Source of the DNA: Allopusillimonas soli
GTDB taxonomy: Bacteria; Pseudomonadota; Gammaproteobacteria; Burkholderiales; Burkholderiaceae_B
Direction of reading: 5' to 3'
Length of the DNA: 64,000 nucleotides
Assembly: GCF_004153445.1 (NCBI RefSeq)
Contig: NZ_SDQC01000002.1
Span: 744,001-808,000, forward strand
The notes under the pieces are model-generated. The model was not told the origin of the DNA. It saw only the letters and a list, made by a program, of their open reading frames with translations, and ran no database searches. Below are positions 35,267-50,074 of the stretch, one piece after another (the stretch's first letter is position 1; each line of letters opens with the position of its first letter). A program made the translations under genes and the position numbers.

Positions 35267-35342
35267 GGGCTGTTAGCTCAGTTGGTAGAGCAGCGGACTC
35301 TTAATCCGTAGGTCGAGTGTTCGAGCCACTCACAGCCCACCA
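35267..35342 (+). tRNA. tRNA-Lys, anticodon CTT
   Basis: A 76-nt cloverleaf. Acceptor GGGCTGT pairs with ACAGCCC, discriminator A, and CCA is encoded. The D-arm contains AGCTCAGTTGGTAGAGC. The anticodon stem GCGGA/TCCGT encloses loop CTCTTAA, so the anticodon is CTT, reading AAG. The T-arm is GAGTG/CACTC around TTCGAGC. The gene stands alone; an intrinsic terminator follows at 35369-35400, and the sequence downstream looks like an accessory insertion, for which tRNA 3' ends are usual sites. Confidence 0.97.
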
Positions 35343-44596: not shown

Positions 44597-46090
44597 CTAG
44601 AAACGCGGCAGATCGGGGAAACGCAGTTCGCCGCCATGTACATGCATCTTTCCGTACTCGGCACAGCGCGCGAGCGTCGGCACGACCTTCTCCGGATTCA
44701 GGAGACTGTACGGGTCAAAGGCGCGCTTGAAGGCGCTGAAGAAATCCAGCTCGGGGCGGGTGAACTGCACGCACATCTGATTGATCTTCTCTATGCCCAC
44801 GCCATGCTCGCCGGTAATGGTTCCGCCCACCTGTACACAGAGCTCCAGGATGGCGGCGCCGAATTTCTCGGCGCGCTCGACCTCGTCGGGCTTGTTCGAA
44901 TCGAACATGATGAGCGGGTGCAGATTGCCGTCGCCGGCATGAAAGACATTGGCGCAGCGCAGGCCGTATTCGTCTTCCATCTCTTCGATGGCGTTGAGCA
45001 CCCGCGCCAGGTGGCGGCGCGGAATAGTGCCGTCCATGCAATAGTAGTCAGGCGAGATCCGTCCCGCAGCGGGAAAGGCATTCTTGCGGCCCGCCCAGAA
45101 TGTGAGTCTTTCCTGCTCGCTGGACGATACCTGCAGGCGCGTGGCGCCGGCTTCGCGGAATACCGCCTCCATGCGCTGTATTTCGTGCTCCACTTCTTCT
45201 TCCGTGCCGTCTGACTCGCACAGAAGCAAGGCATTGGCCTCAAGATCATAGCCAGCATTGACGAAGGGCTCGACCATATGCACGGCGCGCTTATCCATCA
45301 TTTCCAGCCCAGCGGGAATGATGCCAGCGCCTATGACGTTGGCGACAGCGTGCCCGGCTGACTCGACGCTGGCAAAACTGGCCATGACGACGCGCGCGCA
45401 CGCGGGCTTGGGAATGAGCCGCACGGTGGCTTCGGTGACGAAACCCAGCATCCCCTCGGAACCGATGAAGGCGGCCAGCAGCTCCAGCCCCGGACTGTCA
45501 GGCGCCTCGGAACCCAGCTCCAACACCTCTCCGTCAATCGTAATCACGCGCGCGCGCAATATGTTGTGCACCGTCAGCCCGTACTTCAGGCAGTGAACGC
45601 CGCCGGAGTTCTCGGCGATGTTCCCGCCGATGGTACAGGCGATCTGGCTGGAGGGATCCGGTGCATAGTACAGACCGAAAGGGGCCGCCGCTTCGGAAAT
45701 GGCGAGGTTGCGCACGCCCGGCTGCACGACGGCGCTTGCCGAAGCCGGATCTATGCTGAGAATGCGGTTCAGCTTGCTCAAGCCCAAAATAATGCCTTGG
45801 GCGTGCGGCATGGCTCCGCCGGAGAGCCCTGTACCCGCCCCGCGCGCCACAATGGGAATGTTGAGCACCTTGCAGGCCGTGACAACAGCAATGAGCTGGG
45901 CTTCGTTTTCGGGCAGGATGACTACCGGCGGGAGCGTACGGTAAAGCGACAGGCCGTCGCACTCGTAGGCACGCGTGTCCTCGACCCGGGACAGTATGCA
46001 GTGCTGGGGCAGCTTGCCCGCAAGACGCGCCAGCAGTCCGGGAAAGTCGGGGGTCTGCTGGTACGCTGGGCTGATCAGGGTATCAGTCAT
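44597..46090 (-). CDS. glcD: Glycolate oxidase subunit GlcD (FAD-linked)
   Basis: A 497-aa flavoprotein with a PCMH FAD-binding domain (PIVARGAGTGLSGGAMPHAQGIILGLSKLN) and a C-terminal FAD-oxidase domain with FHAGDGNLHPLIMFD and TITGEHGVGIEKI. It is the catalytic core of glycolate oxidase. It starts 87 nt after a second GlcD-like gene. No glcC regulator or glcB malate synthase is visible nearby. Confidence 0.94.
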   Translation of the reverse strand: MTDTLISPAYQQTPDFPGLLARLAGKLPQHCILSRVEDTRAYECDGLSLYRTLPPVVILPENEAQLIAVVTACKVLNIPIVARGAGTGLSGGAMPHAQGIILGLSKLNRILSIDPASASAVVQPGVRNLAISEAAAPFGLYYAPDPSSQIACTIGGNIAENSGGVHCLKYGLTVHNILRARVITIDGEVLELGSEAPDSPGLELLAAFIGSEGMLGFVTEATVRLIPKPACARVVMASFASVESAGHAVANVIGAGIIPAGLEMMDKRAVHMVEPFVNAGYDLEANALLLCESDGTEEEVEHEIQRMEAVFREAGATRLQVSSSEQERLTFWAGRKNAFPAAGRISPDYYCMDGTIPRRHLARVLNAIEEMEDEYGLRCANVFHAGDGNLHPLIMFDSNKPDEVERAEKFGAAILELCVQVGGTITGEHGVGIEKINQMCVQFTRPELDFFSAFKRAFDPYSLLNPEKVVPTLARCAEYGKMHVHGGELRFPDLPRF

Positions 46091-46177: not shown

Positions 46178-47590
46178 CTACGCCCGCGGAATCATCTTGC
46201 CGGGATTAAGGATGTCATGCGGATCGAACGCCCGCTTCAGGGAAGTCATTAGGTCCAACGCATCCTGGCCGTGCTCGGCCAGCATGAATTCCATCTTGTG
46301 CATGCCCACCCCATGCTCGCCAGTGCAGGTGCCCTCCATTTCGATGGCACGCTGCACCAGCCTTTTGTTCAGTCGCTCGGACTCTTCCCACTCCTGCTGG
46401 CTGTCGGGATCGAGTAGCATGAGCACATGGAAGTTTCCGTCTCCCACGTGGCCGACGACGGTATAGGGAAAGCTGGCGTTGTCCAGGTCTGCCGCAGTCG
46501 CTGAAACACAGTCCGCCAGGCGGGAAATAGGCACGCAGACATCGGTGGTGCTGGCTCGGCAGCCCGGGCGAAGTTGCAGGCCGGCAAAATAGGCATTGTG
46601 CCGGGCAGTCCAGAGGCGGCTGCGATCCTCGGGGCGTTCGGCCCAGTCGAAATCCATACCGCCATTGCCGCGGGCAATTTCCTGCACCACCTCGGCCTGC
46701 TCTCGTACTCCCGAAGGCGTACCATGAAATTCGAACAGCAGCAGCGGCGTCTCTTTCAGTTCGAGCTTGCTGTAAGCGTTGGTGGCCTTGACTGCCCAGG
46801 CATCCATGAACTCGACCCGCGCCACCGGCACGCCCATCTGAATGATCTCGATAACGCTTTGCACAGCCGCATCCAGCGACGGAAAATTGCAGATCGCGGC
46901 CGAAAGCGCCTCGGGCTGAGGATAGAGGCGCACGGTCACCTCGGTAATGATGCCCAGGGTGCCTTCGCTTCCGACAAAAATTCGAGTCAGGTCGTAGCCC
47001 GCCGACGATTTGCGGGCCCGGTTCGCGGTTTCAATGATGCGCCCGTCGGCGGTCACGACTTTGAGCGACATGACGTTTTCGCGCATGGTGCCGTAACGCA
47101 CGGCATTGGTGCCCGAGGCGCGCGTGGCCGCCATGCCGCCAAGGCTGGCATCCGCGCCGGGATCTATGGGGAAAAACAGGCCGGTGTCGCGGATTGACTC
47201 GTTTAGCTGCTTGCGGGTGACACCCGCCTGCACGGTGACGGTGAAGTCCTCCGCGTGCAGCGCCACAATATGGTTCAGGCCCGACAAGTCCAGGCTGATG
47301 CCCCCATGCAGCGCAAGCAAATGGCCCTCAAGCGACGAGCCAGCCCCATAGGGAATCAGCGGCACGCGGTATTCGTGGCAATGGCGCGCCACCCAGGCGA
47401 CATCCTCGGTGCTTTGCGCAAACACGACACCGTCCGGCAGCATGGGCGGATAGGGAGACTCGTCGCGCCCGTGATGTTCGCGCACCGCCTCAGCAGTTGA
47501 AAACCGGTCTCCGAATCGCTCGGACAACGCCTGCAGAAACCCCGCGGGTATGTCTCGACGCAACCCTTGCGCCTGGGCTGGGGCATTCAT
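46178..47590 (-). CDS. FAD-linked oxidase, D-lactate dehydrogenase (cytochrome)-like
   Basis: A 470-aa paralogue of GlcD with PLIPYGAGSSLEGHLLALHGGISLDLSGLN in the FAD domain and VVGHVGDGNFHVLMLLD and TCTGEHGVGMHKMEFM in the C-terminal domain. The SSLEGH and WTARHNAYFAGLQLRPG segments resemble eukaryotic-type D-lactate dehydrogenase (DLD) and related 2-hydroxyacid dehydrogenases. It sits immediately upstream of glcD on the same strand, so it may feed lactate or 2-hydroxyglutarate oxidation in step with glycolate. D-2-hydroxyglutarate dehydrogenase is an alternative. Confidence 0.85.
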   Translation of the reverse strand: MNAPAQAQGLRRDIPAGFLQALSERFGDRFSTAEAVREHHGRDESPYPPMLPDGVVFAQSTEDVAWVARHCHEYRVPLIPYGAGSSLEGHLLALHGGISLDLSGLNHIVALHAEDFTVTVQAGVTRKQLNESIRDTGLFFPIDPGADASLGGMAATRASGTNAVRYGTMRENVMSLKVVTADGRIIETANRARKSSAGYDLTRIFVGSEGTLGIITEVTVRLYPQPEALSAAICNFPSLDAAVQSVIEIIQMGVPVARVEFMDAWAVKATNAYSKLELKETPLLLFEFHGTPSGVREQAEVVQEIARGNGGMDFDWAERPEDRSRLWTARHNAYFAGLQLRPGCRASTTDVCVPISRLADCVSATAADLDNASFPYTVVGHVGDGNFHVLMLLDPDSQQEWEESERLNKRLVQRAIEMEGTCTGEHGVGMHKMEFMLAEHGQDALDLMTSLKRAFDPHDILNPGKMIPRA

Positions 47591-47653: not shown

Positions 47654-48739
47654 TCATGCAGCCTGGCTGTGCGCCGGCGAGGATTGCGCCTGCCGGCGTG
47701 CTCGCACCGCCTCTGCCAGGCGATCAAGCACCTGCACGGTGGTGTCCCAGTCTATGCAGCCGTCGGTAATGCTCTGGCCATATACCAGAGGCTTGCCCGC
47801 AACCAGATCCTGCCGCCCCGCAACGAGATGGCTTTCGATCATGACGCCACAGACCGAGACGCTGCCGGATTCAAGCTGGCCCGCGATGTCGTCGATGACG
47901 CGCGGCTGATTGCGATAGTCTTTGTTGCTGTTCGCATGGCTGGCGTCAATCATGACACGGTTGCCCAACCCAGCCTGCGCCAGGGTCTCGCAGGCGGACC
48001 CGACGCTGGCCGCATCGTAATTGGGCTGCTTGCCGCCGCGTAGAATAACGTGGCAATCATTATTGCCCACAGTGGAAACAATGGCCGAATGACCGCCCTT
48101 GGTCACCGACAGGAAATGGTGCGGCTGGGAAGCGGCCTTGATGGCATCAATGGCAATGCGCGTATTGCCGTCTGTGCCATTCTTGAACCCCACGGGGCAA
48201 GAAAGGCCGGAGGCAAGCTCGCGGTGCACCTGGCTTTCGGTGGTGCGCGCTCCTATGGCGCCCCACGATACCAGGTCGGCAATATATTGGGGCGTAATCA
48301 TGTCAAGGAACTCGCAGCCGGCTGGAAGCCCCAAGGCATTGATGTCAATGAGCAATTCGCGTGCTGTGCGCAGCCCCTGGTTGATGTTGAAGCTGCCGTC
48401 CAGACCCGGATCGTTGATCAGGCCTTTCCAGCCCACGGTCGTGCGGGGTTTTTCGAAATACACCCGCATGATGATTTCCAATTCGCCCCGCAGCCGGCTG
48501 CGCTCGTTGGCGAGACGACGGGCGTACTCGAGGCCGGCCTCCGGATTATGGATGGAACACGGGCCCACGACGACCACCAGGCGGTCGTCTTCGCCATGCA
48601 AAATGCGGTGTGCCGCACGACGGGCATCGTAGACCGTCGAGGAAATGGCAGTGGTGCAGGGAAATTCGCGCATGACATGGGCAGGCGGGCTGAGTTCCTT
48701 GATTTCGCGGATTCTTAGATCGTCAGTATTGTGCGACAC
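47654..48739 (-). CDS. aroG: 3-deoxy-7-phosphoheptulonate synthase (DAHP synthase, AroG type)
   Basis: A 361-aa class I-alpha DAHP synthase, condensing PEP and erythrose 4-phosphate at the entry of the shikimate pathway. Motifs VVVGPCSIHNPEAGLEYARRL, MRVYFEKPRTTVGWKGLINDP and MIDASHANSNKDYRNQ are intact. The start is GTG with GGAG seven bases upstream. A 173-nt leader precedes it, encoding a phenylalanine-rich peptide and an intrinsic terminator, which strongly suggests attenuation by phenylalanine supply. This fits the Phe-sensitive AroG isozyme rather than the Tyr- or Trp-sensitive ones, though feedback specificity cannot be read directly. Confidence 0.95.
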   Translation of the reverse strand: MSHNTDDLRIREIKELSPPAHVMREFPCTTAISSTVYDARRAAHRILHGEDDRLVVVVGPCSIHNPEAGLEYARRLANERSRLRGELEIIMRVYFEKPRTTVGWKGLINDPGLDGSFNINQGLRTARELLIDINALGLPAGCEFLDMITPQYIADLVSWGAIGARTTESQVHRELASGLSCPVGFKNGTDGNTRIAIDAIKAASQPHHFLSVTKGGHSAIVSTVGNNDCHVILRGGKQPNYDAASVGSACETLAQAGLGNRVMIDASHANSNKDYRNQPRVIDDIAGQLESGSVSVCGVMIESHLVAGRQDLVAGKPLVYGQSITDGCIDWDTTVQVLDRLAEAVRARRQAQSSPAHSQAA

Positions 48740-48778
48740 GGTTCAACTCCAGGGTGTTTGCCAGCCAGTATGCGGAAC

Positions 48779-48811
48779 AAAAAAGCCGCCTAGCGAAGCT
48801 GGCGGCTTTTT
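48779..48811 (-). terminator. Attenuator terminator in the aroG leader
   Basis: Minus-strand stem GCCGCC / GGCGGC extended by AGC / GCT (loop TTC, one bulged A) and by an A5/T5 run, ending in TTTTTT at 48784-48779. It lies 17 nt after the leader-peptide stop and 39 nt before the aroG GTG. Its 5' arm CCGCCAGC (48798-48805) can instead pair with GCTGGTGG (48855-48862) in the leader ORF, an 8-bp helix with one G-U pair, and TTCCC (48812-48816) with GGGAA (48845-48849) inside it. Confidence 0.85.
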
Positions 48812-48828
48812 GGGAATTTGATGATTTT

Positions 48829-48912
48829 TTACTGCGTACAGCGCTTCCCTTCCTCCACCAGCGGTTTTGGAAAAGCAAAATAAAAGAAAAAAAACGAAAT
48901 GGCGCGGTACAT
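48829..48912 (-). CDS. Phenylalanine-rich leader peptide of aroG
   Basis: A 27-codon ORF, MYRAISFFFFYFAFPKP..., with six Phe and one Tyr among residues 7-14, closely recalling E. coli PheL and PheM control peptides. It starts at ATG 48912 with AGGA nine bases upstream and ends in TAA, 17 nt before an intrinsic terminator. Ribosome stalling at the Phe codons would free GCTGGTGG (codons 17-20) to pair with the terminator arm and let transcription reach aroG. The tail after the Phe run (LVEEGKRCTQ) is longer than in enteric leaders. Confidence 0.8.
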   Translation of the reverse strand: MYRAISFFFFYFAFPKPLVEEGKRCTQ

Positions 48913-48920
48913 AGTCGATA

Positions 48921-48949
48921 ATCCTAGCACAGAGACCCCGCTTTGCCAA
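48921..48949 (-). promoter_or_regulatory. Promoter of the aroG leader
   Basis: Minus-strand -35 TTGGCA (48944-48949) and extended -10 TGC-TAGGAT (TAGGAT 48921-48926) are separated by exactly 17 bp. Initiation is expected about 7 nt downstream, only a few bases before the leader-peptide ATG at 48912. Confidence 0.75.
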
Positions 48950-48972
48950 GCCCGGCGCACAGCGGGCTTGGC
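48945..48972. repeat. Inverted repeat over the aroG -35 element
   Basis: GCCAAGCCCG and CGGGCTTGGC form a perfect 10-bp inverted repeat with an 8-bp spacer. It overlaps the -35 of the aroG promoter and lies 120 bp upstream of the ehu promoter on the other strand. No U-tract follows on either side, so an operator is more likely than a terminator. Confidence 0.55.
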
Positions 48973-49092
48973 CCTCATGACGCTTGGCATGCCCCTTGCT
49001 GCCGGCGCAGCATTGCGGCGCGATGCAGGCACGCCGATCCGGCCTGTTTTCCACAAAGCAAATATGTCGCACGATAATCATGCGCTATCAAT

Positions 49093-49126
49093 TGATTTGA
49101 ACTCAAATAATTATGTAGTGTATGAT
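49093..49126 (+). promoter_or_regulatory. ehuBCDA promoter with putative EctR operator
   Basis: -35 TTGAAC (49097-49102) and -10 TATGAT (49121-49126) are 18 bp apart. The imperfect palindrome TGATTTGAACTCAAATAA (49093-49110) covers the -35 and matches the ectR-promoter palindrome at 14 of 18 positions. An ATCAATTGAT palindrome (49087-49096) abuts it. Binding here would block RNA polymerase. Confidence 0.75.
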
Positions 49127-49213
49127 TTTCTTCGAGACTATTGCACAAGAAGGGGCTGGTCGCCGGCCCGTGCAGCGAGCTTTCGCATCGAAACAACGAT
49201 AAGGACGACATCT

Positions 49214-50074
49214 ATGCTCAATATCCGCCGAACCACATTCATCGCCCTGGCAGCATTGCTCACGGGCGGCGTGGCTGCGCAGGCAAGTGCCGCCAGCCTG
49301 AAGGAAATCAAGGACAACGGTACCATCCGCATCGCCGTCGCCAACGAAATACCCTATGGCTACATGGATATGAACGGCCAGGCAAAGGGCGCCGGCCCCG
49401 ACGTTGCCAAACACATCATGGAGCAGCTGGGCATCAAGAACATCAAATGGGTCACTACGAATTTCGGCTCCCTCATTCCGGGGTTGCGGGCCAATCGCTT
49501 TGACATGGTGGCTGCCGAGATGGCCATTCTTCCCCAGCGCTGCAAGGAAGTTCTTTTTTCCGAGCCCAACAGCTCGTATGGTGAAGGCCTGCTGGTAGCC
49601 AAAGGCAATCCCGACGGCCTGCATTCCTATGACGCATTTGCCAAGAACGACAAGAAAATCGCCATCATGGCAGGTGCGGACCAACTGGAAATGCTGCAGA
49701 AACTGGGCGTGCCCGGCGACCGCATGGTCACCATCTCGAGCAATGCGGACGCTATTTCAACCGTATCCACCGGCCGCGCGGCGGGCTATGCCGCCACCAG
49801 CCTGACAGTGGCCCAATTGGCGGCAAAGAGCGACAAGGTCGAGGCCGCAGCCGAATTCGAGGATCCCGTCGTGGATGGCAAGCCCGTGCGCAGTTGGGGC
49901 GGCTTCACATTCAGCCAGGATTCCGGGGCGCTGCGCGACGCTGTCAATGCCGAACTCGCCAAATTCAAGAAGACGCCCGAGTGGCAGAAGATACTGACCG
50001 GCTACGGCTTCAGCGAGCACGACGCCAAGGCTTCGTTCGACCAATCCACCAAGCAGCTCTGCACGGCCGAGTAA
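49214..50074 (+). CDS. ehuB: EhuB, ectoine/hydroxyectoine ABC transporter substrate-binding protein
   Basis: A 286-aa periplasmic binding protein with a signal peptide (LNIRRTTFIALAALLTGGVAAQASA). The mature start LKEIKDNGTIRIAVANEIPYGYMDMNGQAKGAGPDVAKHIMEQLGI is highly typical of EhuB. Aromatic residues that cage the ligand are expected; PYGYMD and SYGEGL are in place. AAGGA lies eight bases before the ATG. It is first in ehuB-ehuC-ehuD-ehuA and next to the ectoine synthesis operon, which makes uptake of ectoines for osmoprotection likely. No eut/doe catabolic genes are present. Confidence 0.93.
   Translation: MLNIRRTTFIALAALLTGGVAAQASAASLKEIKDNGTIRIAVANEIPYGYMDMNGQAKGAGPDVAKHIMEQLGIKNIKWVTTNFGSLIPGLRANRFDMVAAEMAILPQRCKEVLFSEPNSSYGEGLLVAKGNPDGLHSYDAFAKNDKKIAIMAGADQLEMLQKLGVPGDRMVTISSNADAISTVSTGRAAGYAATSLTVAQLAAKSDKVEAAAEFEDPVVDGKPVRSWGGFTFSQDSGALRDAVNAELAKFKKTPEWQKILTGYGFSEHDAKASFDQSTKQLCTAE

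Follow-up and report, generated by a model that had tools for sequence, protein, structure and literature searches.

Phenylalanine leader peptides of enterobacteria lie upstream of pheA (pheL) and of pheST (pheM). Leaders upstream of a DAHP synthase gene have been described in other bacteria: for Corynebacterium glutamicum aroF a leader peptide, cg1129, containing Phe-Tyr-Phe is predicted (PMC4046766), and the uORFC-13-1 motif upstream of Acholeplasma aroF is presented as a short ORF with a U run and a terminator (PMC8632094). Attenuator ORFs at the start of the message are also on record, with the leader ORF of the Sinorhizobium meliloti trpL attenuator at the very 5′ end of its transcript and peTrpL reported to act in trans (PMC7298713), and with leaderless leader peptides of attenuators in Streptomyces lividans (PMC8079986). 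For aroG itself, a regulon study of Proteobacteria places the gene under TyrR in Vibrionales.

We analysed a 64,000-nucleotide stretch of Allopusillimonas soli DNA (the window) in which aroG is preceded on the minus strand by a 27-codon ORF, 48829–48912, that runs from ATG to TAA, encodes MYRAISFFFFYFAFPKPLVEEGKRCTQ and carries FFFFYFAF as residues 7–14. The initial annotation had described this ORF, with its own start codon, 90–173 nt upstream of aroG, and both ORF and position are confirmed: the stop codon lies 90 nt from the aroG GTG at 48739, and the gene product scores 578.1 bits against the NCBIfam AroG equivalog NF006723 (cut-off 568). AroG matches itself alone in its own genome (E ≤ 0.001), and its best solved relatives, at 502–503 bits, are chains named DAHP synthetase, Phe-regulated or Phe-sensitive DAHP synthase. 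The leader ORF and an intrinsic terminator sequence both lie between a promoter-like site and aroG. A detector that calls for a start codon, then at least five F/Y/W within 10 codons, then a terminator returned a single match on both strands of the window, the aroG leader; a simple consensus scan listed no terminator on the minus strand there and only a hairpin on the other strand. We propose, with a probability of about 0.9, that the leader is a ribosome-mediated transcription attenuator of the trp/phe type, a reading in which the switching is predicted from sequence. The locus combines an upstream ORF rich in codons for the pathway's products, a terminator recognized by sequence and a mutually exclusive antiterminator obtained by computed pairing, and because this terminator/antiterminator pair is present the leader should act on transcription. 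The elements, all on the minus strand, are as follows.

48944–48949, minus strand: −35 hexamer TTGGCA, from a consensus scan; the family majority has TTG there.
48921–48929, minus strand: extended −10 element TGCTAGGAT, which contains an AGGA; from the consensus scan and the family −10 spacing.
48829–48912, minus strand: predicted leader ORF of 27 codons, probably leaderless, with the start of transcription placed by promoter geometry.
48871–48894, minus strand: control codons FFFFYFAF, also strand 1, a pyrimidine tract that partners strand 2; from the codon test and from 1:2 pairing in the free fold.
48845–48864, minus strand: strand 2, CCGCTGGTGGAGGAAGGGAA, within leader codons P-L-V-E-E-G-K; from alignment and covariation.
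48862–48855, minus strand: antiterminator arm GCTGGTGG, part of strand 2; from pairing with strand 3.
48798–48816, minus strand: strand 3, TTCCCAAAAAGCCGCCAGC, both terminator 5′ arm and strand 2 partner; from alignment and folds.
48779–48810, minus strand: intrinsic terminator, AAAAGCCGCC with GGCGGCTTTT and then a T run (strands 3:4); from fold, detector and covariation.
48747–48750, minus strand: GGAG, the aroG Shine-Dalgarno sequence; from the sequence and family Shine-Dalgarno counts.
47654–48739, minus strand: aroG, DAHP synthase, the regulated gene; NF006723 over cut-off, and solved relatives.

On the plus strand, the longest frame of a divergent EhuB-like ABC binding protein (48899–50074) extends back across the leader; this overlap is probably spurious, since the likely true start, judged by eye, is near 49214.

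The leader resembles the enterobacterial Phe leaders (RF01859) in its Phe-run peptide, pyrimidine-tract strand 1 and GC-rich terminator, but differs in that the gene is aroG, Tyr and often Trp codons accompany Phe, strand 2 lies inside the ORF and the ORF is probably leaderless. RF01859 Phe_leader was the best-scoring Rfam family at the leader (26.9 bits, E 0.018, whole model), far from its gathering score of 55. No Rfam family reached its gathering score at the leader or in 20 relative loci, so membership of a known Rfam family was rejected and routine annotation will miss the aroG leader. No known riboswitch or T-box matched; within the window, only a tRNA (35267–35339) reached the gathering score of an Rfam family. 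C. glutamicum cg1129 resembles the aroG leader by its description, as a predicted attenuator leader that has both Phe and Tyr and precedes a gene for DAHP synthase, but it belongs to an actinobacterium and has three aromatic residues named (PMC4046766). The uORFC-13-1 motif shares the short ORF, a U run coding at least one Phe, a terminator and a DAHP synthase gene, and differs in the ribosome-binding site and additional paired substructure described for it and in being reported only from Acholeplasma and environmental sequences (PMC8632094). S. meliloti trpL and the S. lividans leaders have the attenuator ORF at the 5′ end, a position that promoter geometry suggests here, but read Trp, Leu, Ile and other amino acids before other genes. 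Control of aroG by such a peptide had been put forward in the initial annotation as not known to be described, and we found no account of it in Rfam at threshold or, among the matches listed, in open-licence literature; an earlier prediction in print is possible, for instance in the surveys Vitreschak 2004 and Lopatovskaya 2010. The attenuator type is textbook; what appears to be new, on sequence comparison, is this aroG leader and its recurrence in several proteobacterial groups.

Conservation across the family was assessed at 105 loci (the 30 best and 75 chosen as a few per genus) read from the 145 of 151 family genomes with an AroG match at E 1e-100 or better. The aromatic ORF with its terminator was detected at 96 of these 105 loci, compared with 0 of 105 reverse complements and 1 of 315 dinucleotide shuffles. 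The conserved Phe run, whose absence from relatives the initial annotation had named as grounds for refutation, is thus widespread among them. The nine family loci at which no element was detected belong to genera g8, g14, g22 and g26, and in the second aroG copy (~61% identity) that some family genomes carry, no leader was detected in any of five upstream regions (L106–L110). The detector undercounts: L230, L231, L235 and L176 have four clustered aromatics against the threshold of five and are scored as misses throughout.

The codons of the aromatic run appear to be selected as codons. Among 68 distinct family cores, F/Y/W make up 70.9% of codons in frame versus 36.5% and 34.9% in the shifted frames, and the corresponding values for 56 distinct cores outside the family are 64.6% versus 19.8% and 13.6%. 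A pyrimidine tract alone would allow Leu, but Leu occupies only 2 of 680 positions in family cores (Ser 31, Pro 19); this in-frame excess and the rarity of Leu indicate selection on aromatic codons and not just on a U tract. Both synonymous pairs vary (TTT/TTC 280/63, TAT/TAC 87/43). The emphasis of the initial annotation on Phe needs widening, for Tyr is nearly as constant: all 68 family cores hold both F and Y and 9 hold W, and outside the family F occurs in 56 of 56 cores, Y in 53, W in 37 and all three in 34. A Phe-only sensor was accordingly rejected. The 'other' group of our codon and fold analyses at first mixed in named Alcaligenaceae, and all outside-family values given here come from the separated sets.

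We aligned 62 of 69 non-redundant leaders (from the 96), omitting seven divergent ones (L095–L101), a choice that favours clean pairing counts. In this alignment the strand 2 segment GCUGGYGG, the column of GCTGGTGG, pairs with CCGCCAGC of the terminator 5′ arm in 96.4% of cells, compared with 13.7–60.1% when the helix is slid, and both partners have changed in 7 cells, spread over three of its pairs (shuffles give 0.7). The terminator stem is paired in 98.9% of cells, versus 30.3–78.2% in slid versions, with 5 cells in two pairs changed on both sides, although its further pair types were not above shuffles (163 of 500 reach the number). A second antiterminator helix, GGGAA:UUCCC, is poorly kept in the alignment. 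Strand 2 coincides with the end of the peptide, where P-L-A/V-E-E-G after the aromatic run is strongly conserved in 56 family peptides lined up on those residues. Such conservation is what would be expected if the nascent chain, with its FPKPL-EEG end, itself arrested the ribosome in response to free Phe or Tyr, in the manner of TnaC, a peptide that stalls the ribosome with Trp. However, the Leu codon never changes in its third base and the Val/Ala codon hardly ever does, which points to RNA pairing and not the peptide as what holds the strand 2 end; Massilia and Rugamonas peptides end differently (for example SNSNPKAVE) and yet keep the GGCGGTGGAG stretch; and the aromatics drift among F, Y and W and in number, as is not expected of an arrest motif. 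We consider arrest by the nascent chain very improbable, even as the best surviving of the alternatives to attenuation by codon-dependent stalling. The leader peptide may have an additional role in trans, by analogy with that reported for peTrpL.

Folds computed up to strand 3 are consistent with ribosome-dependent switching between the two helices. In the 69 family sequences, the leader captures strand 3 with a mean probability of 0.75 when a ribosome is stalled in the aromatic codons, 0.41 without a ribosome, 0.23 when the ribosome sits on strand 2 and 0.41 with a stalled ribosome and a shuffled spacer; capture exceeds 0.5 in 57 of 69, 28 of 69, 10 of 69 and 115 of 276 cases, respectively. 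The 59 sequences from outside the family give 0.88 stalled, 0.51 ribosome-free, 0.30 on strand 2 and 0.30 with shuffled spacers, with 57 of 59, 31 of 59, 17 of 59 and 62 of 236 above 0.5. With a ribosome parked at the stop codon strand 2 stays open (mean 0.68 in the family, 0.55 outside it), and termination must therefore rely on a moving ribosome or on 1:2 pairing. At z −1.11 the whole-leader fold does not stand out, and 29 of 200 shuffles equal it. That 28 family transcripts already favour the antiterminator when free of ribosomes, with switching a matter of prediction, is compatible with a constitutive partial terminator, or with leader translation acting by coupling only, and no sensing of amino acids. 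Neither in-frame selection of aromatic codons nor stall-dependent pairing above that of shuffled spacers is expected from such an arrangement, and we give it hardly any weight, slightly less than arrest by the nascent chain.

A promoter-like site, TTGGCA-17-TAGGAT with extended TG, was found by consensus scan on the minus strand immediately before the leader. In 91 of the 96 family leaders an extended −10 element of the TGnTAnnnT kind (score of at least 8 of 11) ends 6–9 nt upstream of the ATG, a count towards which our procedure leans since the ATG was picked from up to three in-frame candidates by the better −10; at random places in the same regions, scored with no such choice, 8 is reached in 9.5% and 9 in 1.2% of 1,718 trials. 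Aligning 64 family promoters by their −10 gives TTG as the majority bases at the −35 place (56–73% per base). The AGGA at 48925–48922 that had been taken for the leader's own ribosome site falls inside the −10 hexamer TAGGAT, leaving no separate Shine-Dalgarno sequence, and as a conserved Shine-Dalgarno it was rejected: a 4-base match precedes the leader ATG in only 40 of 96 family leaders and overlaps the −10 element in all 40. By comparison, a match of 4 to 6 bases precedes aroG in 92 of 92 placed starts (92 of the 96 family loci). From the −10 spacing and the Shine-Dalgarno overlap, the predicted start of transcription is the ATG itself or a position no more than about 4 nt away, and the leader ORF is probably leaderless as judged by promoter geometry. 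Several Xanthomonadales and Rhizobiales leaders have promoter-like boxes at a similar distance by eye, and in some Oxalobacteraceae the distance from box to leader is longer.

In the proposed attenuation mechanism, transcription would start at or a few bases from the leader ATG and the leader would be translated without a Shine-Dalgarno sequence. A shortage of charged tRNA-Phe or tRNA-Tyr would stall the ribosome in codons 7–14, where it would block the pairing of strand 1 and free strand 2 for strand 3; the 2:3 pairing would keep the terminator from forming and aroG would be transcribed. When the amino acids are plentiful, the ribosome would advance onto strand 2 as strands 3 and 4 are being synthesized, the terminator would form and transcription would end ~40 nt before aroG. 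Charged tRNA-Trp would also be read where Trp codons are present. We infer the direction and size of the aroG response from this same scheme. The suggestion in the initial annotation that a stalling-type leader peptide controls aroG is supported by the conservation, the codon selection and the alternative pairing, with stalling as its predicted step. The proposed attenuator gives the committed step of aromatic amino acid synthesis a regulatory rule that can be tested in Alcaligenaceae, other Burkholderiales, Xanthomonadales and Rhizobiales, where the initial annotation had only TyrR control of E. coli aroG as a model. Its natural variants, F+Y versus F+Y+W, form a series for studying how one leader integrates several amino acids; the probable leaderless start raises the question of how leader translation is primed; and the leader probably offers a point of control for engineers of aromatic compounds in such hosts.

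Two long minus-strand frames follow closely behind aroG, at 46178–47590 (63 nt gap) and 44597–46090, and may share its transcript; the first resembles the glycolate-oxidase subunit GlcD, below cut-off. Elsewhere in the same genome, trpE (360895–362304, minus strand, of contig C13) is preceded by an ORF, MTATLYYRSSPGANWRWWRSRSGWR, that contains four Trp codons and has an intrinsic terminator behind it, apparently a Trp attenuator by its sequence. Within 1,500 nt of pheS and of the prephenate dehydratase gene in this genome, we detected no aromatic leader with terminator even when the threshold was lowered to 4. The idea that the same device governs a wider aromatic regulon was rejected, with pheS and the prephenate dehydratase gene lacking the leader and trpE having a Trp leader.

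We next looked beyond the family. Among the 80 best named relatives the detector was positive in 70, comprising 27 of 30 records of Alcaligenaceae/Burkholderiaceae type, as assigned by record name, and 43 of 50 others. Leaders were detected among these 80 in Bordetella, Achromobacter, Advenella, Alcaligenes and Castellaniella; in Massilia, Rugamonas, Duganella and Oxalicibacterium; and in Xanthomonas, Stenotrophomonas, Pseudoxanthomonas, Dyella, Kaistia, Devosia and Bradyrhizobium. The broader samples are, like the named set, non-random: with the own locus and one shared locus set aside, the class set (the best 29 of 101 matching genomes) gave 1 positive among 29 loci and the phylum set (the best 28 of 106) 11 among 28, and the order set (40 of 91 genomes) gave 9 among 40. 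These low counts indicate that most gammaproteobacterial orders sampled are without the leader; some alphaproteobacterial leaders fall just below the detector threshold. Controls for the named, class, phylum and order sets gave 0 of 177 reverse complements and 0 of 531 shuffles. From 62 family leaders we built an RNA model whose sole structure is the terminator. In its own genome the model matches at full length once, at aroG (E 1.8e-23), and four further matches are weak and partial. Searched against 60 genomes of the order, the model matched in 17, with 14 full-length and 3 partial matches; all 14 full-length matches, the own genome included, lie directly upstream of aroG and the 3 partial ones lie elsewhere. 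Each of the 13 full-length matches outside the own genome codes for a leader rich in aromatic residues, with 6 to 9 F/Y/W per 10 codons. The initial annotation had spoken of Alcaligenaceae, but an Alcaligenaceae-only element was rejected: detector and RNA-model matches occur outside the family, and the leader is also found in Oxalobacteraceae, Xanthomonadales and Rhizobiales. Least probable of the alternatives to attenuation is that the ORF, a short hydrophobic peptide kept across genera, is a small functional protein whose transcript the terminator merely ends, given that full-length model matches occur only before aroG in the genomes searched, that leader length and ends vary, that strand 2 codons follow RNA pairing, and that the window leader matches no NCBIfam family and the leaders of five relatives none in NCBIfam or Pfam.

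The distribution of the leader is one-sided in the AroG tree. In an unrooted tree of 116 of 144 AroG proteins, near-copies having been dropped (LG+G4, short search), all 64 leader-bearing proteins fall among the 75 on one side of a single branch (SH-aLRT 97), and none of the 41 on the other side has a detected leader. Presence and absence of the leader require 6 changes on this tree, and at least three 'none' rows on the leader side carry a sub-threshold leader (L176, L230 and L231). The simplest reading is one origin of the leader with some losses, for which an unrooted tree from a short search offers support and not proof. Going further, we lean towards a single ancestral pan-aromatic attenuator on a leaderless message that would have arisen once with this AroG branch and stayed or travelled with aroG across beta-, gamma- and alphaproteobacteria. 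It would sense Phe and Tyr in part of these lineages and Trp as well in the rest, such that the pathway entry enzyme would be switched by one element reading every end product.

Three aroG genes on the leader side of the tree that have no leader (L122, L134 and L173) lie within ~200 nt of the end of a same-direction gene, as if aroG had moved or been joined to this neighbour and the element lost; the C-terminus encoded by the neighbouring gene is presumably TldD-type. AroG proteins from three contigs titled Planctomycetes (L155, L181 and L185) also fall inside the leader side, with no leader detected upstream of their genes. On a contig titled Mycobacterium sp. KBS0706 (L152), AroG groups with alphaproteobacterial proteins and its gene has a leader of their kind; the record is perhaps mislabelled or contaminated.
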